From Planctomycetaceae bacterium (GTDB taxonomy: Bacteria; Planctomycetota; Planctomycetia; Planctomycetales; Planctomycetaceae): 64,000 nucleotides of DNA. The first letter of the stretch is position 1. Every line of letters starts with the position of its first letter. Made by a program: the position numbers and the translations under genes. The notes beneath the pieces are model-generated. The model worked only from the letters and a program-made list of their open reading frames with translations. It made no database searches and was not told where the DNA came from. Positions 25,531-53,079 of this stretch are shown piece after piece. Location: assembly GCA_021732785.1 (NCBI GenBank), contig JAKFUG010000071.1, positions 1 through 64,000 on the forward strand, written 5' to 3'.

Positions 25531-25855
25531 CTCGACAAGAAACGCAATCCCGTGTCTGCCAATGGCGAAAGTTGACCGCGCTGGCCATTGCGACCCATCA
25601 ATTGTCGTTTACGCATGCAGTCGCGTCAACCGCGAACCGGCGGAAATCAATGATCGGTTAAGAGGGTAGTTTGAATTCCAAGGCGTCGGGGCAGGGGACG
25701 CGGCCGATGATTTTAGATTGATTTTGACATCCATATGTCGGACCCCCGCCCCGACACTTCAAACGGACCTACCGTCCAACGATCGAACCGCGCTTGCTCT
25801 CGTTGTGTCGAGAAGGTTTGATGACAGGGCTGTGTTTCTGTGTGAAAGGGGATTG
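25531..25855. other. Divergent intergenic region before the ternary-system operon
   Basis: A 325-nt region between the divergent DUF1549/1553 gene and the first ternary-system gene. It contains an imperfect inverted repeat (listed separately) and a TTGACA at 25724-25729 without a convincing -10 partner. No coding sequence is supported. Promoters for both sides must lie here. Confidence 0.4.
25685..25755. repeat. Imperfect inverted repeat with AT-rich centre
   Basis: GTCGGGGCAGGGGAC at 25685-25699 matches the reverse complement of GACCCCCGCCCCGAC at 25741-25755 at 13 of 15 positions. The 41-nt centre is AT richer than its surroundings. It lies about 100 nt before the start of the ternary-system operon. 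Confidence 0.45.
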
Positions 25856-26551
25856 ATGACGATGACGCCACTCGCCGATTTCCTCACCGCCTTGTGGGAA
25901 ACGGGGCAGGTCGCCGTTCCGGAACTTTCTCCCGGAGGAAAGAGCGACATTTCTCCCGCCGACGTCACGGAGGCCACACTGCGACTGCATTGTTATGCGA
26001 GCGACGAACGAACCGCGCTGCCGGGTGTGCCGCCGACCGTGGACGCCGCCGCGGCGATGTGGGGACTCACCGCGATGTTCGCGGCTTGCAGTCTCATCGT
26101 CCATCGTCAACAGACCGTGGAAATGTTTGCCTCACAATTTGATAGCCAGCAACTCGATTCCTCATCGTCCAATGTGGTCTATTCGGTCGATCTCGCGCTC
26201 CGTTTCCTGCCGGATGTCCATCGACTGGCGACGAAACTTTCCGAGAGCGATCCCCTCTGTGACGTGCTGGAAGAACTCGGGCGACGTTGGCCGTTGTCGT
26301 CTGTCGGGATGTCTTTTCGTGAGCCGCAGGAAACTTCCGCTGTCGATACTGCCGCATGGTGGAGTGATGATTGTCTCCGCCAGGTTTACCTCGATCGGAT
26401 CATCGAGCGCGAAGACTTCATGCGGTTGCATGAATCCTGCGTCGCCGATTCCCTGCGGGCGGTGATTGGCATCCATGACGATTTATCACCTAAGATTTCA
26501 TCGGCACTCAAAACAAAAACGGTTGCACTGACGGCACCGTCAGCAGACTGA
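25856..26551 (+). CDS. Small accessory protein of a MoxR-vWA-beta-propeller ternary system (bpX0-type, number uncertain)
   Basis: A 231-residue, mostly helical protein beginning MTMTPLADFLTALWETGQV. It has the pattern HCYASDERTALPGVPPTVDAAAAMWGL, which I associate with the small protein that precedes the MoxR ATPase in ternary systems. No signal peptide or membrane segment. The assignment rests on position and pattern, not on a proven motif. AAGGGG lies 5 nt before the ATG at 25856; an earlier frame start at 25718 lies in the presumed promoter region. The MoxR gene begins 19 nt after its stop. Confidence 0.65.
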   Translation: MTMTPLADFLTALWETGQVAVPELSPGGKSDISPADVTEATLRLHCYASDERTALPGVPPTVDAAAAMWGLTAMFAACSLIVHRQQTVEMFASQFDSQQLDSSSSNVVYSVDLALRFLPDVHRLATKLSESDPLCDVLEELGRRWPLSSVGMSFREPQETSAVDTAAWWSDDCLRQVYLDRIIEREDFMRLHESCVADSLRAVIGIHDDLSPKISSALKTKTVALTAPSAD

Positions 26552-26570
26552 GACGATTTTCGGGAACAGC

Positions 26571-27740
26571 ATGTCGACATCCGCTATTGATCCTTCTGTC
26601 TTCACCGACATCGCCGGACGGTTAACCGCCGAAATTTTGGAACCGATGAAGCAGGCGTTCGTCGGCAAAGAGGAAATTATCGACCTGCTGGGCGTGGCGC
26701 TGGTCGGCGGTGAAAATCTATTCCTGCTCGGCCCTCCGGGAACGGCGAAGAGCGCGATCGTGCAGGAACTCGGCCGGCGTATCGGCGGGCGTGTCTTCGA
26801 CTATCTGCTGACGCGCTTCACGGAACCGAATGAACTGTTCGGTCCGTTCGATATTCGCCGGCTGCGCGAAGGGGACCTTGTCACCAACACGCAGGGAATG
26901 TTACCGGAAGCGGAGTTTGTCTTTCTCGACGAACTGCTCAACGCCAACAGCGCGATTCTCAACAGTCTGCTGACGGTGCTGAATGAGCGGGTGTTTCGCC
27001 GCGGGCGGGAAGTCATCCCGGTCCCCATGTTGATGGTCGTCAGCGCCAGCAATCATCTGCCCGAAGACGAAGCGTTGCGGGCGCTGTTCGATCGGTTCCT
27101 GCTGCGCGTGCCGTGTGAAAACGTTCCCGGCGAACGGCTGGGGGAAGTACTGACCGCGGGCTGGCGATGGGAAACTAATCGACCGCATCCGGAGACAAGC
27201 TTGCCGGTGGAATCGCTGCGGACCTTGCAGAAGGGGATCGGACTCGTCGATCTCGCGCCGATGATGGGGGCCTATGTCGGCTTGATTCAACGGCTGCGAA
27301 CGGCGGGGATGGCGGTCTCGGATCGCCGCGCGGTGAAGTTGCAGCGCGTGATTGCCGCCAGCGCGTTGCTGAGCGGTCGGTTGCAGGCGGACGTTTCCGA
27401 TTTGTGGGTCCTGCGATACATCTGGGACACGCAGGAACAGCAATCGTTGCTGGCATCGCTGGTCCGGCAGGCCATGACCACCGCGGAAGGTCCCGATCCC
27501 GATCGCCGGCATCCGCGCGCGAAGCAAACCGATCGGCCCGATCCGGAACAATTATCCCGTGAGATTCAACAACTCTCGGAACAAGCCGCGGCCCCGAATG
27601 TCACCGATGTTGACCGAGCGGTGCTGCGCGACAAATTGGGGCTGCTCGCCGGACGCTGCGAATGGGTCGCCGATTCGTTGCAGCGCACGCATCTGCAACA
27701 CGAAGTCTCGGCCGTCTGGAAACTGCTGGGGGCTCCGTGA
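26571..27740 (+). CDS. MoxR-family AAA+ ATPase of a ternary system
   Basis: A 389-residue AAA+ ATPase. Walker A GPPGTAKS is at residues 54-61, Walker B FVFLDE at about 116-121, sensor 1 SASNHLPE at about 158-165, and the arginine-finger-like DRFLLRV at about 174-180. The long helix 2 insert ELLNANSAILNSLLTVLNER is typical of MoxR/RavA. MoxR ATPases work as remodelling chaperones together with vWA proteins; a vWA-containing partner is encoded two genes downstream. The C-terminal part (about 200-389) is helical. The next gene follows after 2 nt. This is the likely NTP-driven motor of the five-gene unit. Confidence 0.93.
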   Translation: MSTSAIDPSVFTDIAGRLTAEILEPMKQAFVGKEEIIDLLGVALVGGENLFLLGPPGTAKSAIVQELGRRIGGRVFDYLLTRFTEPNELFGPFDIRRLREGDLVTNTQGMLPEAEFVFLDELLNANSAILNSLLTVLNERVFRRGREVIPVPMLMVVSASNHLPEDEALRALFDRFLLRVPCENVPGERLGEVLTAGWRWETNRPHPETSLPVESLRTLQKGIGLVDLAPMMGAYVGLIQRLRTAGMAVSDRRAVKLQRVIAASALLSGRLQADVSDLWVLRYIWDTQEQQSLLASLVRQAMTTAEGPDPDRRHPRAKQTDRPDPEQLSREIQQLSEQAAAPNVTDVDRAVLRDKLGLLAGRCEWVADSLQRTHLQHEVSAVWKLLGAP

Positions 27741-27742
27741 TC

Positions 27743-28525
27743 ATGACGACAACCCGTCCACAAGCCACATCGCCCATTACCGCCTGGGTGGCACGCGTTC
27801 CCTTGGACCATGTGAACGCCGTCGTGATACTGCGCAGCGAACCGGGGCTGATCGCCTGCGAAGACGAGCACCACTGCTGGATTCGTCCCGCAGTGACCAC
27901 GGCACCGTTAAAAGACGAATTGTCACGGCGTTTGCGGTTGCTGGCCGTGGCCGAGTTGATGCACGTCACGCCTGCGGGGACCGTCATTCCGTGGGGGAAA
28001 CGCGTTCCGACGGGGCAGCTTCCCGCGGGAACATGGACGCCGCTGACGGAATTCTTCACGCCGGGTGCGCCGGTCGCTCGCTATGCGGCGCAGCAACCTG
28101 AACCGACCAAGCTGACGTTCGTCATGTGTGAAAACATGGTTGCACCGTCACTGCTACGGCTCCCGTTGTCCGAATGGCGGGCCTACGTCAGCACCGCACC
28201 GAATGTGCGGTTATCCCGCTGGGAATTTGCGGCGAACCGTCATGGCGAGGTCCTCGTTCGGGGCACGCCGTTGCCGTCACTGCCGGGACAACATTATTGG
28301 GAAGCCGAAGGGTTGCTGATCCCCTGCGGGTGGCATTGGTCGCCCGCCGTTTCTGCCGACATCGTTCGCAGCGTGCTACGGCTCGAACCGGCTGTGTTCG
28401 CGCTCGCCGACATTGTGACATCCACCTGGGAGACCCTTTCACCGGACGCCTTTGTGCCCGCCCGTCGGCAAAACGTCCGCGGCACAAAGATCGAACTGAT
28501 CGCCACCGATGAGGCCGCATCATGA
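27743..28525 (+). CDS. Accessory protein of the ternary system (bpX1/bpX2-type, number uncertain)
   Basis: A 260-residue protein beginning MTTTRPQATSPITAWVARVP. It has the pattern GLIACEDEHHCWIRP, then a Trp-rich strand (LPAGTWTPLTEFF), and near the end YWEAEGLLIPCGWHW. This resembles the small beta-rich protein found between the MoxR and vWA genes in ternary systems; I cannot fix the domain number. It has no membrane segment. ATG at 27743, 2 nt after the MoxR stop, with a G-rich stretch 10 nt upstream. Its stop overlaps the next start by 4 nt (ATGA), supporting coupled translation. Confidence 0.7.
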   Translation: MTTTRPQATSPITAWVARVPLDHVNAVVILRSEPGLIACEDEHHCWIRPAVTTAPLKDELSRRLRLLAVAELMHVTPAGTVIPWGKRVPTGQLPAGTWTPLTEFFTPGAPVARYAAQQPEPTKLTFVMCENMVAPSLLRLPLSEWRAYVSTAPNVRLSRWEFAANRHGEVLVRGTPLPSLPGQHYWEAEGLLIPCGWHWSPAVSADIVRSVLRLEPAVFALADIVTSTWETLSPDAFVPARRQNVRGTKIELIATDEAAS

Positions 28526-31308
28526 GCGCGCCCCCCGCCGATGAGATCGTGCGCTACTTCACCCCTGCGGGGTCATCGTTTTGGCGTTGGTCGGGAACCG
28601 GCTGTGCAGAAATTGAAACCGCTCGCGAACCGGTCACACTCCTTGCATTCCGTGGCGAACTCCGTGAATTACTTTCGGCCATGCAACCGCAGGGATGGCC
28701 GCCGCTGTCATCGATCTTACTGCTGATGGCAGCGACACGCGAAAGCTGGCCGATGGTACGGGAACCGTTGCGGGGCTTCTTCGATGTCACGTCTCCCAAG
28801 AATCCGTTCGTTGCCGATGTGATCGAACAGCTTGACCGCTTGCACGCGTTGCCCGCCGATTTACGGGAATCGACCAACGCCCGGCATCGGCTGCTGATGG
28901 TCGTGTTCGAAGGCAGCCGCCCGCTGCTGAATGCCACCCAGGCGGCCGAAGGGCTGAAGTTGTTGACGGCGGTCATTCCCCATCGCGAGCCGGACAACTG
29001 GGATGAAGAAGAGCTGCCGAAGAAGCCCGGCGTGCGTTTTGCCGATTGGACGCGCAGCCTGCGTATCGGGCTGGCCCGGCTGAATGAAGAATCGCTGCGA
29101 AGCCGGCAACTCACCGGTTTGGATCACGTCGTTCTTCCCGCGCCGATTCCGCAACCGCCTCCGTTGCCAACACCAGCACTGCCCAGCACGCACGCCGCGC
29201 GGTTATGGGAATGGTCGCATGATCCACAGTTGTATGGTGTCGCCCGCATCGCCCGGCAGTTGCTCTCCGTCGCCACGTGGCCGCGACGGTTGAGTCAACC
29301 CGATGATCTGCCCCTCGGTGGCGTGTCGGACCTGACGAATCGCGGGCCGCTGGATCGACTGTTGTTGACGGAACTCGCGCAGGATGACGATGCGCTGATG
29401 GTGCGAATCGCACTCAATGAAGCGCTGTATCTGCGACGGGAATGTCCGCGTCAGGAAAGTGCCCATCGACGAACCATTCTGGTTGACGCCGGGTTGCGGA
29501 TGTGGGGTCGGCCGCGTGTCTTCGGAGCCGCGGTTGCGCTGGCTATGGCGGCGGCTCAGGATCGCGAGGCATCGCTGACCGTGGTTATCTCCGTCACGAA
29601 CCATGAGGGTTGGCGATCACCCGATATCGACACGCGCGATGGTGCGCTCGAACTTCTCGGCGCATTATCCCCGAAGCTGCACCCCGGGGATTGCCTCGAA
29701 GAATGGCGTGCATGGAATGATTCCGCTGAGACTGACCACGAGTACGTGCTGGTCACCACGCCGGACGTCGTGCGGCAACCCGAGTTTCAACAACAGCTCA
29801 CGCATCTCCCGGTCGATCTCCGGATTGCCCTGGTGGACGGCAACGGCCGGTTCGAGTTGCACACGCATTCCTCGCACGGATGGCGAACTGAATTCACGGC
29901 GGAACTCGATCTCGACGAACTGCTCAAGCCGCCGCCGGAAACCCGCACGCTGTCGTTGACGACGTCGGCTCCCGATCGTTACCCGGCGATCCTGCGGATC
30001 ACATCGTTCCCGTTGCTGCTCACGCATCAGTTGGAGCCGGGGTACTGCTTCCCCGTCGGTGACGACAAGATGGTCACGCTCGCTTCCGGGGGCCGCGTGC
30101 TGTTGTGGACGCAGTCCCAACGCGGCGGTCGACAATTGGCAACGGACGTCCCCCGCGGCAAAGTGGAAACGTGGTCCACAATGACCACCGCCGAGACCGG
30201 CCATTCACAGCGGACTCTCGCGGTCTTGCGAGCGAAACAGTGGACACTGCTCACAATCCACGCCGAGGCGCGAACCTGTCACACCGTGGAATTGAAGAGC
30301 GACTGGGCACCGTTTGATCCAACAGTTCGCGCCGTGATTTTGCCGGAATGTGTGGTGCTGATTTCCAAACGAGGAATGGCGGCTTTTTCACTCACATCGG
30401 GAGAATGGCTGCATACTTCGACCGAATATCAACTCCATGAAGGCTTTCACGGTAATCGTTACCTTTATTGTCCGGGAGACCACTGGCATCGCCTTTCCTT
30501 CGATGGTGAATTGCGCGCCGAACGAGTTCCGACAGCAAAGAATCTGTTGATGCTGATTGATCCCCCGGAGACTTACAGTCCCGATGGTCCCATCGAAGTT
30601 CCTGCCGACGGTGTGCGCGAAGCCGGCACGCATCGAGTCCCACCGTTTCGGGGGAGCGAAATCAATTTTGCTGAGCAGCGCGGCGATCTGGTTCTGGTTG
30701 CGGGACGATTCGAGACGTTGAACAATCGTTCCGGAGGTAACTACGCGTCATGCGCCATCTGGGACATGAACCATTCGGAGCACGGATGGAATCTCGGCTA
30801 TCACTCCAGCCAGCACGAACTTGCTTTCCACCATCGAATTACCCATAAATTTCACACGCGGCCGGCCCTGCGTACGAAGCTCGCGGGAATCGTGTGCGAC
30901 GGAAGCATGGTCTGTCTCGTGTCGACTAAACAGAAATGGTGGCGGATCAAGCCCACCGATGACAAGTTGACATTGAGCCCGCAAGCCATCCTTGCGGATG
31001 TCACCCCGGCACCGTTGGAACGGCTGCGCTGGCCGGGCGTTTCGACCGTTATGCACACGGCTAAACTCGCGAATGGTAACGCCGTGTGGCTGGATGCCCG
31101 CGGGCTGTTGCATTTGCTGCCTGCCGATGCGCAGCAACCGGAAATCACGCTGGTGCTCGATGAAAACGCCATCAGCGGCTGGGTCTCCGACGGTCGCCAA
31201 TTTGGCGATGCGTATTATCTCACGAACTTTTTGGCCGGGGGAGAACATCTTTCGATCATGATGGCCTGGCAAACTCTCATCGCACCTTTTTTTGGCATTC
31301 GCTCATGA
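28522..31308 (+). CDS. vWA-like plus beta-propeller protein of the ternary system
   Basis: A 928-residue protein. The N-terminal ~300 residues are helical with a Pro-rich linker (IPQPPPLPTPALPST). A vWA-like Rossmann domain starts near residue 317 with RTILVDAGLRMWGRPRVF and extends to about 480. The MIDAS consensus DxSxS is replaced by DAGLR, so metal binding is uncertain. From about 490 to the end, repeated blades of beta structure with patterns such as MVTLASGGRVLLWTQ indicate a beta-propeller. A MoxR partner of this kind would receive ATPase-driven remodelling (inference). ATGA overlaps at both ends couple it to its neighbours. Signal peptide absent. Confidence 0.8.
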   Translation: MSAPPADEIVRYFTPAGSSFWRWSGTGCAEIETAREPVTLLAFRGELRELLSAMQPQGWPPLSSILLLMAATRESWPMVREPLRGFFDVTSPKNPFVADVIEQLDRLHALPADLRESTNARHRLLMVVFEGSRPLLNATQAAEGLKLLTAVIPHREPDNWDEEELPKKPGVRFADWTRSLRIGLARLNEESLRSRQLTGLDHVVLPAPIPQPPPLPTPALPSTHAARLWEWSHDPQLYGVARIARQLLSVATWPRRLSQPDDLPLGGVSDLTNRGPLDRLLLTELAQDDDALMVRIALNEALYLRRECPRQESAHRRTILVDAGLRMWGRPRVFGAAVALAMAAAQDREASLTVVISVTNHEGWRSPDIDTRDGALELLGALSPKLHPGDCLEEWRAWNDSAETDHEYVLVTTPDVVRQPEFQQQLTHLPVDLRIALVDGNGRFELHTHSSHGWRTEFTAELDLDELLKPPPETRTLSLTTSAPDRYPAILRITSFPLLLTHQLEPGYCFPVGDDKMVTLASGGRVLLWTQSQRGGRQLATDVPRGKVETWSTMTTAETGHSQRTLAVLRAKQWTLLTIHAEARTCHTVELKSDWAPFDPTVRAVILPECVVLISKRGMAAFSLTSGEWLHTSTEYQLHEGFHGNRYLYCPGDHWHRLSFDGELRAERVPTAKNLLMLIDPPETYSPDGPIEVPADGVREAGTHRVPPFRGSEINFAEQRGDLVLVAGRFETLNNRSGGNYASCAIWDMNHSEHGWNLGYHSSQHELAFHHRITHKFHTRPALRTKLAGIVCDGSMVCLVSTKQKWWRIKPTDDKLTLSPQAILADVTPAPLERLRWPGVSTVMHTAKLANGNAVWLDARGLLHLLPADAQQPEITLVLDENAISGWVSDGRQFGDAYYLTNFLAGGEHLSIMMAWQTLIAPFFGIRS

Positions 31309-34295
31309 GAGTTGTGCCACTTCAATTAACACGCCAACCGCATGCCGTTCGCGCTGCCAGCGCGTGGCTTGTGTCGGGAACCTCGTCGGCGGACTGGCTG
31401 GCAGAAGTCGCCCGCTGGCCGGTGAAACAGTCCGCGCTGCGGTTCCTGATCTTGCCGCAGAGTGGGAATCATGTGGCGGATGCTGCGCTCGTGCTATTGA
31501 AGGAGCCGTTGCCGGAATCGTTTCATCCCGGCCGCGCCCAGCCATACGGACTGGTGGCAGGCAATTTGTACGTTCCCTGCGAAGCCGACGTGGAACCCGC
31601 GCTAACCGACCGCGAATGGGCATCGTTGCTGCCGGGGGAAGAAATGATTTACGTCTGGCGCGCCCACGGTGATCTCGTCGGCGTCGAACCGACGGAAGTG
31701 CGCACCATCGCGGAGTTGCTCACCGCGCGTGCCTCGGCAACAAACGGTTGGACGGAAGCCCGCGATCTGCCGGCGTTCGTATCACGGTTGCGATCGATCA
31801 CCTCTTCGATGCCGATTCCGACGTTGGAAGATGTCGCCACGAATTGGCAAAAAGAAATCGGACCGCCGGACGTCCCGCACAATCTTCCGCCATTACCGGG
31901 AGAGTCGCCGCTGCATTGGACGGAACGGCTGGCGGAGGCGACGTCGGGAATCCGCAAATTCTTGCGGTCGTTTTCGCAGCGGCTCTCCCAGTTCTATCAA
32001 CGATTTCGCGGTCTTCTGCGCGCCGTCGGGCTGGGACTGCTGGCGCTCTTGATCGTGCTGATCTTGCGGAATCTCGGCAGCAGCACGTTCGGATCGTGGA
32101 CCGACATTCTCGTCTTCCTCTTGATCGCGTCGTTGGTCGCCGGCCTGATTCGGGCAGGGCGAAGTTTCGACCCCGTGGTGGAGGCAGCGCCCGCGTCACC
32201 ACGTTCTCCTTCCGTAAACGGTGGCGGCATCGCCCGCGGGATGCAGTCCTTTTGGAAGTGGGTCCAGGGGAGTGTCTCGGCCGCAATGCCCAAGGGGATG
32301 ACGCTCTCACCGTTCGCGGAGGCCGATCGCCGTCAGCGCGAGCGCGAAGTTCAGCGCCTGTTACAGATGCTGTATCAAAACCCGGAAGAAGGCTTGCGAC
32401 ATGCGATTCCGTTTGGCGGCGAGGCCGGTCGGGGTATCGCTGCGGCCGGCAATCAACTTGTCGCGCGGGATTTCAATTTCCGTCTGGGAACCGGTGGTGG
32501 CGGGGGAGCCGCCGACTATTGGGACATCTCCGTCGAACAGCAACTGCGGTTAACGGCGTCGTACCGCATCCTGGCCGAGCGCGAACAGCGAGCGGGGCGA
32601 CATCGCCGCGCTGCGTACATCTATTCGCAACTGCTCGACGATTGGCGGTCCGCTGCCACGGCGCTGGTGGCCGGTCATCATTACGCCGATGCCGCGGTGA
32701 TCTACGAGAAGCGATTGAACAATCCTGCCGAAGCGGCGCGGTACTACGAACTCGCTGGCCAATTCGACAAGGCGCTGCGGTTGTACGTCGACTCATCCAA
32801 CTGGATTGCCGCCGGCGATTTATGCACCCGCGCCGAACGATCTGACGAGGCTCGCGTGCATTACCGCACGGCGGTGGGAGCGGCGGTGACGAACGGAAAT
32901 GTGCCGTACGCCGCGGAATTGCTGGAGCAGAAACTCCACGCCGTGGACGAGGCCTTGGTCCTTTTATCGGATGCCTGGCCGATGAATTCCCGGGCCGACG
33001 TCTGCCTGGACGCCTGGTTCGATTTGACGGCCCGACACCATCGCCAAGAAATCGCCGCGGGAAAAGTGGCCGAGCTTTCGAGACAAACGACGCAAGCCGA
33101 AGCCCTGCGTTTGTTGCCTCGCCTGATGCGCGTCCATCAAAAATATCCGGACGCGAACGTGCAGCGCGAAGCCTCGGAAGCCACACTGCAAGTGGTCGCC
33201 CGGCACCTGACCGACGCCACGTCTGCGGCGACGCAAACCCTCACGGCGTTCCTCCCCGCATTGGTTCCGAACGATCGGCTGTTGTCGCGGGATTGCCAGC
33301 GGTATGTCGAACTCCGCCGTTCGCAGATTCCCCCGACACCCCCCGTTAAGAAAGTGACCCCGCTCCGGCGAGAACACGAGTTTTCGATCGGCGATCTTCC
33401 GTTTCTTGTCCCGGCATTCGCATCCGATCACGGCTGGGCGATTCTGACCACCACGGCCACCGCATCACAGAAGCAGTTGCTGATTCTGACATCGTGGAGC
33501 GAAGTCACCTCCCGTTGCTGGCTGGAGCAGCGCTCAAGTGCGACATCGCTCGTCGGTATCAGTCCGCGGCATCGTGAAATCTGGCTGCGGTCCTCGCTGG
33601 CTCCCCTTCGCGTGCGGTGGAATTCCGGGGCCGAGCAATGGAATGTGATTTCGCCCGAATACTTGCCGATGAATGCGGTGCAAGTTCTCCCCGGAGACGC
33701 CATCACGCGGGTGATGTGGTTTGATGAAATGGGTGCCGTCTGGCTGTCGTACATGGCTCTTCACGGCAGCAATATCCGTTCGGTTCGCATCGCCGAGGAA
33801 TGGCTGGGAGATCCGCAGCATGTCGTGCCTCTGCTGCGCGGCAAGGCCGCCCTGCACGCGTTTGGCGATCACGAAGTCATGACGTTTCTGCCGGTCGGCG
33901 ACGACCAGATTTTTGCCGAACACTTCGATCGCAATGGCATCCGCGTGTGGACGGGCATGCTTCCCGGCGAGGAAGCCGTCTGCCTTTCGGAAAAGGATTC
34001 GCGGCACGTCCTGCTGTTGAAGAAAGACGCCGTGGTGGTGATCGAGGATGTTTACCGTGCGGATTCCAGCCAGCGTCTGCTCTCGGGTTGGTCTTACCCC
34101 AAAGCGGCGCTGATGCTGAACGGCCTGTTCGTGATCGTTGATGAAGCACGAATCGCGTTGTTCCGGACCGGCGACAGCACTCCTGTGATGGAGTATCAAC
34201 ACGCCGCCGCGACTCCGGTGGCCATTGCACGGATCGGCATCAACCGCTTTTCGGTGCTCCGCAGCAATGGTGCCGTCGAAGTCTGGACCTGGTAA
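31305..34295 (+). CDS. bpX6-like protein: membrane segments, TPR-like repeats and beta-propeller
   Basis: A 996-residue protein with several parts. Residues 1-120 resemble the bpX6 N-terminal domain (AASAWLVSGTSSADWLAEV and a GNLYVPC-like turn). Two hydrophobic segments lie at about 240-258 (VGLGLLALLIVLILRNL) and 266-284 (WTDILVFLLIASLVAGLI). TPR-like helical hairpins follow at about 430-560 (YADAAVIYEKRLNNPAEAARYY). The C-terminal ~300 residues look like a beta-propeller (AVWLSYMALHGSNIRSV, VEVWTW at the end). It would anchor the system at the membrane. Start overlaps the upstream stop by 4 nt. It is the last gene of the unit. Confidence 0.82.
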   Translation: MRVVPLQLTRQPHAVRAASAWLVSGTSSADWLAEVARWPVKQSALRFLILPQSGNHVADAALVLLKEPLPESFHPGRAQPYGLVAGNLYVPCEADVEPALTDREWASLLPGEEMIYVWRAHGDLVGVEPTEVRTIAELLTARASATNGWTEARDLPAFVSRLRSITSSMPIPTLEDVATNWQKEIGPPDVPHNLPPLPGESPLHWTERLAEATSGIRKFLRSFSQRLSQFYQRFRGLLRAVGLGLLALLIVLILRNLGSSTFGSWTDILVFLLIASLVAGLIRAGRSFDPVVEAAPASPRSPSVNGGGIARGMQSFWKWVQGSVSAAMPKGMTLSPFAEADRRQREREVQRLLQMLYQNPEEGLRHAIPFGGEAGRGIAAAGNQLVARDFNFRLGTGGGGGAADYWDISVEQQLRLTASYRILAEREQRAGRHRRAAYIYSQLLDDWRSAATALVAGHHYADAAVIYEKRLNNPAEAARYYELAGQFDKALRLYVDSSNWIAAGDLCTRAERSDEARVHYRTAVGAAVTNGNVPYAAELLEQKLHAVDEALVLLSDAWPMNSRADVCLDAWFDLTARHHRQEIAAGKVAELSRQTTQAEALRLLPRLMRVHQKYPDANVQREASEATLQVVARHLTDATSAATQTLTAFLPALVPNDRLLSRDCQRYVELRRSQIPPTPPVKKVTPLRREHEFSIGDLPFLVPAFASDHGWAILTTTATASQKQLLILTSWSEVTSRCWLEQRSSATSLVGISPRHREIWLRSSLAPLRVRWNSGAEQWNVISPEYLPMNAVQVLPGDAITRVMWFDEMGAVWLSYMALHGSNIRSVRIAEEWLGDPQHVVPLLRGKAALHAFGDHEVMTFLPVGDDQIFAEHFDRNGIRVWTGMLPGEEAVCLSEKDSRHVLLLKKDAVVVIEDVYRADSSQRLLSGWSYPKAALMLNGLFVIVDEARIALFRTGDSTPVMEYQHAAATPVAIARIGINRFSVLRSNGAVEVWTW

Positions 34296-34402: not shown

Positions 34403-34906
34403 ATGGGTGATCTGACGCATTTCGATGACCAGGGTGCCAGCCGCATGGTGGATGTCGGTGGGAAAGCGATCACGGAACGAATGGCGCGAGCGGAATCGTT
34501 TGTTCACATGCAGCCCGAAACCCTGTCGCTGATCCGCAATCGCCAGGTAGCAAAAGGGGACGTGCTGGATGTCGCGCGGCTCGCCGGAATCATGGCGACC
34601 AAACGGACCGCCGATTTGATCCCGCTCTGCCACCCGCTGGGGATTGATGCCGTCGACCTGGACCTGCAAATCATCGATGACCGGACGATTCGGATTGAGG
34701 CCACCGTGAAGGTCCAGGGCCGAACGGGTGTGGAAATGGAGGCGCTCACCGCCGTAACCATCGCTGGATTGACGATTTACGACATGTGCAAAGCCGTCGA
34801 CCGGGGAATGACGCTCGGCCCGACACGGTTATTGGAAAAATCGGGCGGGAAGAGCGGCCCCTTTCGAGCGGATGCGCCGCCGTCTTCCTCCAAGCCAATG
34901 GGTTGA
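34403..34906 (+). CDS. moaC: Cyclic pyranopterin monophosphate synthase
   Basis: MoaC acts with MoaA to make cyclic pyranopterin monophosphate, the first intermediate of molybdenum cofactor. The 167-residue protein shows SRMVDVGGK, the active-site stretch [15 protein letters not shown], and [15 protein letters not shown] with [13 protein letters not shown] (catalytic Lys). Length fits (about 160). It lies 107 nt after the ternary-system operon and has no strong ribosome site, so the start is by family alignment. With mobA at 10.9 kb it forms part of a scattered molybdopterin pathway. Confidence 0.95.
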
Positions 34907-52905: not shown

Positions 52906-52993
52906 GCTATCGACGCGACATTGAGATGAGGCTTCAGCGAAACTGAAGTCCCCCGTTATTCGGCCAATCGTCGCAAGTCGTTACAGGGTCAAG

Positions 52994-53079
52994 TGTCGCT
53001 GGCGGGACTCGAACCCGCACGGGGATTACGCCCCAGCAGATTTTAAGTCTGCTGCGTCTGCCGGTTTCGCCACAGCGAC
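52994..53079 (-). tRNA. tRNA-Leu (anticodon UAA)
   Basis: An 86-nt class II tRNA on the minus strand. Acceptor stem GTCGCTG (53079-53073) pairs with CAGCGAC (53001-52995), and the discriminator is A (52994). The anticodon stem GCAGA/TCTGC closes the 7-nt loop CTTAAAA, with anticodon TAA at 53045-53043. A long variable arm (GGGCGTAATCCCC) and the T loop GGTTCGAGTCC are clear. CCA is not encoded. It decodes UUA. It is the only tRNA in the window. Confidence 0.95.

Follow-up and report, generated by a model that had tools for sequence, protein, structure and literature searches.

The stretch analysed here (the window) covers 64,000 nucleotides, positions 1 to 64,000 on the forward strand of contig JAKFUG010000071.1 in the Planctomycetaceae bacterium assembly GCA_021732785.1. 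Between 25856 and 34295 it carries five closely packed plus-strand genes, which by their Pfam families belong to the beta-propeller-containing MoxR-vWA ternary systems:

25856..26551 (+): bpX4 gene, 231 amino acids (aa), Pfam bpX4 1.6e-46; first in 81/81 five-part loci
26571..27740 (+): bpMoxR AAA+ ATPase gene, 389 aa, Pfam bpMoxR 3.8e-96; nearest solved structure RavA (5.7e-46)
27743..28525 (+): bpX2 gene, 260 aa, Pfam bpX2 1.7e-47
28522..31308 (+): gene of a vWA-like/propeller protein, 928 aa, Pfam bpX0 5.2e-18 and bpX1 3.9e-14; AlphaFold 2 model with mean predicted local distance difference test (pLDDT) 81.5
31305..34295 (+): gene of a bpX3/tetratricopeptide repeat (TPR)/propeller protein, 996 aa, Pfam bpX3 3.2e-27; AlphaFold 2 model with mean pLDDT 74.8

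The curated Pfam cut-offs were far exceeded by all five proteins (bpX4, bpMoxR, bpX2, bpX0 plus bpX1, and bpX3), so chance could be excluded. The genes were separated by gaps of 19 nucleotides (26552-26570) and 2 nucleotides (27741-27742) and then by ATGA overlaps at 28522 (bpX2 and the 928-aa gene) and at 31305 (the 928-aa and the 996-aa gene), and apparently form one operon; the open frame of bpX4 extends upstream to a TTG at 25718. A preliminary description of the window, made from its open reading frames, had drawn the same five-gene plus-strand unit with the same gaps and overlaps, and its coordinates agreed with ours. The MoxR ATPase and two small accessory proteins that it named were recovered as bpMoxR, bpX4 and bpX2, and the profile searches that it proposed gave significant matches to bpX0, bpX1, bpX2, bpX3, bpX4 and bpMoxR. 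Since all five proteins passed the cut-offs of the families that make up these ternary systems, the gene set and its coupling are real, as that description had held. Judged from its sequence, the locus is a beta-propeller-containing MoxR-vWA ternary system with all its parts, typical of the family, and the copy is probably a working one.

For the survey of gene order, 112 distinct loci including that of the window were drawn via bpX2 or bpMoxR matches, so the counts tell how the parts travel and not how frequent the system is. All five parts were recognised in 81 of these loci, and a single order on a single strand was kept in 81/81. Among the 31 incomplete ones several, not all, stopped at the end of a contig. 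No bpX4 was recognised in L126, L134, L136, L141, L142 and L150, although MoxR was preceded by 1.7 kb of sequence or more, and L134 had no recognised bpX3 either. The tight packing of the operon was broken by stretches of some 1-2 kb at two places in L043 (3821-5857 and 7781-8822) and at one in L113 (10871-12213); in these two loci they separated bpX4 from MoxR and bpX2 from the vWA gene. In L112 the vWA and bpX3 frames were broken into short frames, possibly a pseudogene or an assembly error, and genome G008 held bpX2 alone (L093 is not the stretch with that gene).

The ATPase motifs were intact, among them this P-loop:

26730..26753 (+): Walker A loop GPPGTAKS, a GxxxTAKS variant, read from the sequence and invariant in a 14-row alignment

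It scored 320.5 bits with the Pfam bpMoxR model against a cut-off of 27. The regions that we take to be Walker B and, in ALFDRF, the arginine-finger region were intact in the sequence and conserved in the alignment. At E <=1e-5 its solved relatives were RavA chains only, while the NCBIfam RavA equivalog model gave 175 bits and did not reach its cut-off of 681. MoxR was the most identical of the five proteins in 9/10 within-genus pairs. The GxxxTAKS variant is reported to be often present in beta-propeller ternary systems in the available sections of PMC7159879. Two close bpMoxR relatives (L119:2126-3274 and L167:8941-10179) stood alone among unrelated genes, with no recognised bpX partner in stretches of 12 and 19 kb; a new variant of the system was considered for them and set aside. 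They may be remnants, reuse or binning errors.

The 928-aa protein was divided as follows:

28642..29100 (+): bpX0 helical domain, residues 41-193; Pfam bpX0, helices in the model
29434..29931 (+): vWA-like alpha/beta region, residues 305-470; strand order in the model, hhalign to true vWA domains with probability about 10
29485..29499 (+): D-x-G-x-R motif, D322-R326; sequence conservation in 91 sequences
30013..31185 (+): beta-propeller region with extra strands, residues 498-888; best Z 11.3, strands in the model
31060..31290 (+): bpX1 C-terminal domain, residues 847-923; Pfam 3.9e-14, found in 32/32 members

Counting the window, bpX0 was found in 31/32 and bpX1 in 32/32 members of the family. 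The AlphaFold model, with a predicted template modelling score (pTM) of 0.57, showed a helical N-terminal part, an alpha/beta part at 316-450 and then a long beta region. The latter matched propellers C-terminal to the vWA region (VIA-align, best Z 11.3, root mean square deviation (rmsd) 4.7, 255 residues). The strand list of the model suggests, without a count by any tool, a propeller fuller than the approximately four blades given for the vWA component in the available text of PMC7159879. No vWA structure match was obtained with Foldseek or VIA, whose lists were filled by propellers so that the vWA region was barely probed, and the family profile gave one chance-level match to solved structures (E 0.36). 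When the family was compared by hhalign with a profile of 26 vWA domains of the same genome, a marginal alignment was found in the expected register, with D322 on the metal-site aspartate.

The canonical motif of the metal ion-dependent adhesion site (MIDAS) is D-x-S-x-S. In the 928-aa family both serines were replaced, by G and R, and among 91 sequences including the window D322 was kept in 91/91, the glycine in 82/91 and the arginine in 81/91. This strong conservation suggests that the site was rebuilt rather than decayed, and the arginine probably lies in place of the metal ion. According to the available sections of PMC7159879, some vWA domains of ternary systems are without one or both aspartates.

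The 996-aa protein comprised four parts:

31305..31724 (+): bpX3 N-terminal domain with the shared module, residues 1-140; hhalign to fvmX7, probability 95.9, E 5.2e-9
32010..32150 (+): two hydrophobic helices, residues 236-254 and 264-282, a predicted membrane hairpin; hydropathy 2.61 and 2.12
32532..33326 (+): solenoid of regular, TPR-like helices, residues 410-674; pLDDT of 86-98 per block
33351..34292 (+): C-terminal WD40-type beta-propeller, residues 683-996; best Z 17.6

Its AlphaFold model (pTM 0.47) began with a small N-domain of alpha/beta type, followed by a linker of low confidence holding the two hydrophobic helices, then the TPR-like solenoid and a propeller of moderate confidence, which was closest to WD40 proteins (best Z 17.6, rmsd 4.0, 259 residues). 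The Pfam TPR model had no match in the protein, so the TPR assignment rests on the structure model. The membrane segment, TPRs and beta-propeller read for this protein in the preliminary description were borne out by hydropathy and by the model, and Pfam added the bpX3 domain.

A hypervariable slot of 44-188 residues separated the N-domain of bpX3 from the TPRs. The mean frequency of the top residue was 0.17 in the slot, against 0.39-0.41 before and 0.50 after it; the C-terminal propeller was variable too (0.26). A segment with hydropathy >=2.0 was present in the slot of 7/74 family proteins, that of the window included. Since so few reached this value, strong membrane anchoring is a trait of the window copy and a few others. 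A laxer cut-off of 1.7 applied to the whole protein flagged 23/74 bpX3 proteins and was not usable, because 65/108 MoxR proteins were flagged as well.

The N-domain of bpX3 and one half of bpX2 turned out to share a module with fvmX7, a protein of the FtsH ternary systems:

28097..28465 (+): C-terminal half of bpX2, the module common to fvmX7 and the bpX3 N-domain; hhalign probability 97.8

The C-half of bpX2 aligned with fvmX7 at E 1.2e-12. The bpX3 N-domain aligned with the same part of fvmX7 as listed above, against at most 1.2 in 60 shuffles, and the direct comparison of the bpX2 C-half with the bpX3 N-domain was weaker (probability 57.1, E 1e-4). No probability above 4.7 was reached in 60 column shuffles of each of the three pairs, and the remaining bpX parts stayed at <=5.1 against fvmX7; the E-values are those of single comparisons, and the bpX2 profile was built without the fvmX7 sequence of L081. 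Weak bpX2 matches in other genomes, in frames of about 1,000-1,300 aa, sat in genomes with fvmX7, and the one that was examined belonged to an FtsH ternary system, as its fvmX7 protein. A shared P-loop variant is noted, and a common ancestor of both system types proposed, in the available text of PMC7159879; the shared bpX2/bpX3/fvmX7 module is absent from its sections 21 and 22. FtsH ternary operons with one or two tandem fvmX7 proteins were seen in L095 and L186-L204. Two tandem fvmX7 genes (proteins of about 1,160 aa) occurred in 10/22 FtsH loci, so that two module copies per machine are no more than a suggestion. Profile probabilities of <=0.7 led us to reject bpX4 and bpX0 as counterparts of fvmX5 or fvmX6.

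Across 297 genomes of the class, bpX2 matched in 76 at E <=0.001 and passed its cut-off in 74; 7 of the 76 matches were weak, all in genomes holding fvmX7, which left 69 strong ones. The system was lacking from G001, a genome of the same genus rated 100% complete. fvmX7 was found in 68/297 genomes and together with bpX2 in 21, about 16 being expected if the two were independent; no fvmX7 match was found in the genome of the window. A scan of named genomes gave 255 bpMoxR relatives, of which the best 80 were kept, a sample biased towards kin of the window: 50 were from Planctomycetota, 17 from Verrucomicrobiota, 8 from Bacteroidota, 2 from Wallbacteria and 1 from Acidobacteriota, and 2 had no phylum. 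Aeoliella straminimaris and Chitinophaga (loci L129, L168 and L177) are among the carriers that can be cultured. On a quick MoxR tree of 81 rows including the window, with 29/78 inner branches unresolved, the phylum labels needed 5 changes against 25.8 in shuffles, so in this sample the system seems seldom to have spread between phyla, while within genera it occurs patchily.

The ratio of nonsynonymous to synonymous substitution rates (dN/dS) was about 0.03-0.31 for the five genes in the unsaturated comparisons of 10 within-genus pairs, and the genes are under purifying selection; they often evolved faster than most neighbours. Certain flank rows that combined dN/dS >1 with a very low dS looked like spurious antisense frames and were not used. 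A clean empty site was not found. In G001 the two flanking blocks lay on different contigs. In G031, of genus g28, the channel and PAS genes used as anchors were present without the system, the other side being different, and the anchor channel had no match in G030, G050 and G061 of that genus.

Clusters of neighbours across the loci revealed no sixth partner gene that stood out. The widest cluster, a large permease-like protein that we read as RND-like, occurred in 8 loci, where its distance, side and orientation varied, and the remaining clusters in <=5 loci, mostly of one genus. In the window, a MoaC-like gene (34403-34906, named from its sequence) lay on the same strand 107 nucleotides downstream of the bpX operon, and read-through into it could occur. 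A tRNA-Leu (TAA) on the minus strand (52993-53079) was the sole tRNA and the sole Rfam match in the window.

The chances appear about even that the five genes encode an ATP-driven remodelling machine, in which a RavA-like ring acts through a vWA-like/propeller adaptor on a target complex with the TPR/propeller protein. MoxR would assemble into a hexameric, ATP-hydrolysing ring like that of RavA. As the adaptor of this ring, the vWA-like/propeller protein would hold a client or partner via its rebuilt D-x-G-x-R site. The ring would next remodel the complex to which the TPR/propeller protein belongs; in this organism the hairpin probably keeps that protein at the inner membrane. The modules of bpX2 and of the bpX3 N-domain, being of the same kind, would probably serve as paired or alternative binding surfaces of this complex. 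This reading follows from the Pfam set, the intact motifs, the RavA relatives, the one gene order in 81/81 loci, the propellers, the D-x-G-x-R site, the shared module and dN/dS <1; among these the gene set, the ATPase motifs and the conserved order were observed directly, as were the propellers in the predicted models. We lean towards a role in assembling a complex or remodelling it under stress, and away from a dedicated anti-phage system.

Several points weigh against this remodelling machine. No client is known for it. The Pfam VWA model matched 0/32 members of the 928-aa family (E up to 0.01), and the profile match to true vWA domains was marginal (probability 10.1 with E 0.0031; the best of 100 shuffles reached 6.3 with 0.0058). 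For the vWA-like/beta-propeller protein of the preliminary description the propeller was confirmed, and the structure prediction suggested there returned propellers in both large proteins; for its vWA part the model gave an alpha/beta region. Presence is patchy within genera, unlike that of a housekeeping assembly factor. Most proteins of the family have no membrane hairpin, so the general function cannot be membrane work.

A conflict role of these systems was predicted computationally in Kaur et al. 2020 (PMC7159879), whose available sections name a variable N-terminal region as the candidate effector. As an immune or abortive system, the vWA/propeller protein or bpX3 would sense an invader and the ATPase ring would release an effector, perhaps the bpX3 hairpin. 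This is possible, though we doubt it. Besides the published prediction, the patchy occurrence (69/297 class genomes with a strong bpX2 match, none in G001), the hypervariable slot and the rate of change of the five genes, often above that of the neighbours, are compatible with conflict. For the surroundings, flank genes of 22 loci were called by a simple script and 118 of 163 called proteins were used (the nearest three per side, those >900 aa dropped), with 71 of 82 called proteins from five stretches and distant window genes as a non-random control. PADLOC matches were scattered in both sets (25 of 46 and 25 of 28 families listed), a small and crude comparison, and among the matches listed no clear excess of defence models was seen beside the loci. 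Single flank proteins did match SWIM_XIII, HEAT-ARM_XIII, PD-T4-6 and mad6 strongly, more so than any control match listed. The commonest flank Pfam families, among the first 25 of 163, were ordinary (sulfatases, DUF1501/1549/1553). The five proteins themselves had no PADLOC match at E up to 1 and no known effector domain by Pfam. With MoxR as query, one match at E <=1e-60 was found in 72,556 plasmid records, and 50,697 phage records gave 11 partial matches (<=76% of the query, <=42% identity), some of them in bacterial records and none a convincing phage copy. The clustering of the MoxR tree by phylum and dN/dS <=0.31 also speak against conflict. No evident defence islands surround the copies, and a number of results, indirect and from small samples, tend to speak against an anti-phage island of the usual kind. 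The preliminary description had inferred a conflict machine: its membership in the ternary systems held for all five families, and the conflict part, for which no direct support was found, goes back to the prediction of PMC7159879. No laboratory function for the bpX/bpMoxR class was found in open-licence literature, and the conflict label should not be adopted as fact.

The machine could also be a chaperone dedicated to the maturation of a single enzyme or respiratory complex, in the manner of RavA-ViaA or NorQD, its client being encoded elsewhere in the genome. The RavA-like MoxR, the ordinary flank families and dN/dS <1 would fit, but no neighbour conserved across genera offers itself as client, presence is patchy within genera and the standard MIDAS is not conserved, which makes such a chaperone improbable. 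A static signalling scaffold, with propellers and TPRs assembling partners and the ATPase only switching the scaffold on, would agree with two propeller proteins and a TPR-like solenoid in one operon. It is very hard to reconcile with MoxR as the most identical of the five proteins and with its conserved catalytic motifs, which suggest cycles of work, and we give it hardly any weight. Going beyond the remodelling machine of a single locus, the bpX2 C-half, the bpX3 N-domain and fvmX7 might be one previously unrecognised partner-binding module defining a superfamily of MoxR machines. Its members would be remodelling chaperones, not immune systems, with a metal-free, arginine-filled vWA site, and an ancestral machine would have exchanged its second half (propeller/TPR versus FtsH). 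As a whole this proposal is unlikely.

In comparison with known systems, the locus had the same components as the beta-propeller MoxR-vWA ternary systems (subsystem 4) in the available text of PMC7159879, with the GxxxTAKS P-loop and a TPR and propeller third component with a membrane segment, and the same phyla were involved (planctomycetes, Verrucomicrobia, Bacteroidetes). It differed in that approximately four blades are given there and the model here suggests more, and the strong membrane segment was rare (7/74). The class described there is the one to which the locus belongs, so the word undescribed, used in the preliminary description, does not hold for the class. MoxR systems are also treated in PMC10907252, as far as its available text goes. 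The VMAP ternary systems of PMC7159879, in its available sections, likewise have a MoxR and vWA core, but the gene order here differs from their VMAP-MoxR-vWA order, and neither a VMAP component nor a known effector domain was found by Pfam among the five proteins.

The FtsH ternary systems (subsystem 3, Pfam fvmX5-fvmX7) had a related MoxR (hhalign E 1.6e-47) and the homologous module of fvmX7, bpX2 and bpX3. They differ by FtsH, fvmX5 and fvmX6; none of these matched the bpX parts in a meaningful way, and FtsH matched MoxR over 24 columns at the P-loop. RavA is the closest solved MoxR ATPase, and the arrangement proposed here, a ring with a vWA-type partner, is that of RavA-ViaA; the partner here carries a propeller and no standard MIDAS. 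The class is already known, and what is added here is the shared module, the D-x-G-x-R site and the fixed gene order. This complete copy offers testable handles in the module common to two systems, the conserved D-x-G-x-R motif and the hypervariable slot, which here holds a membrane hairpin.

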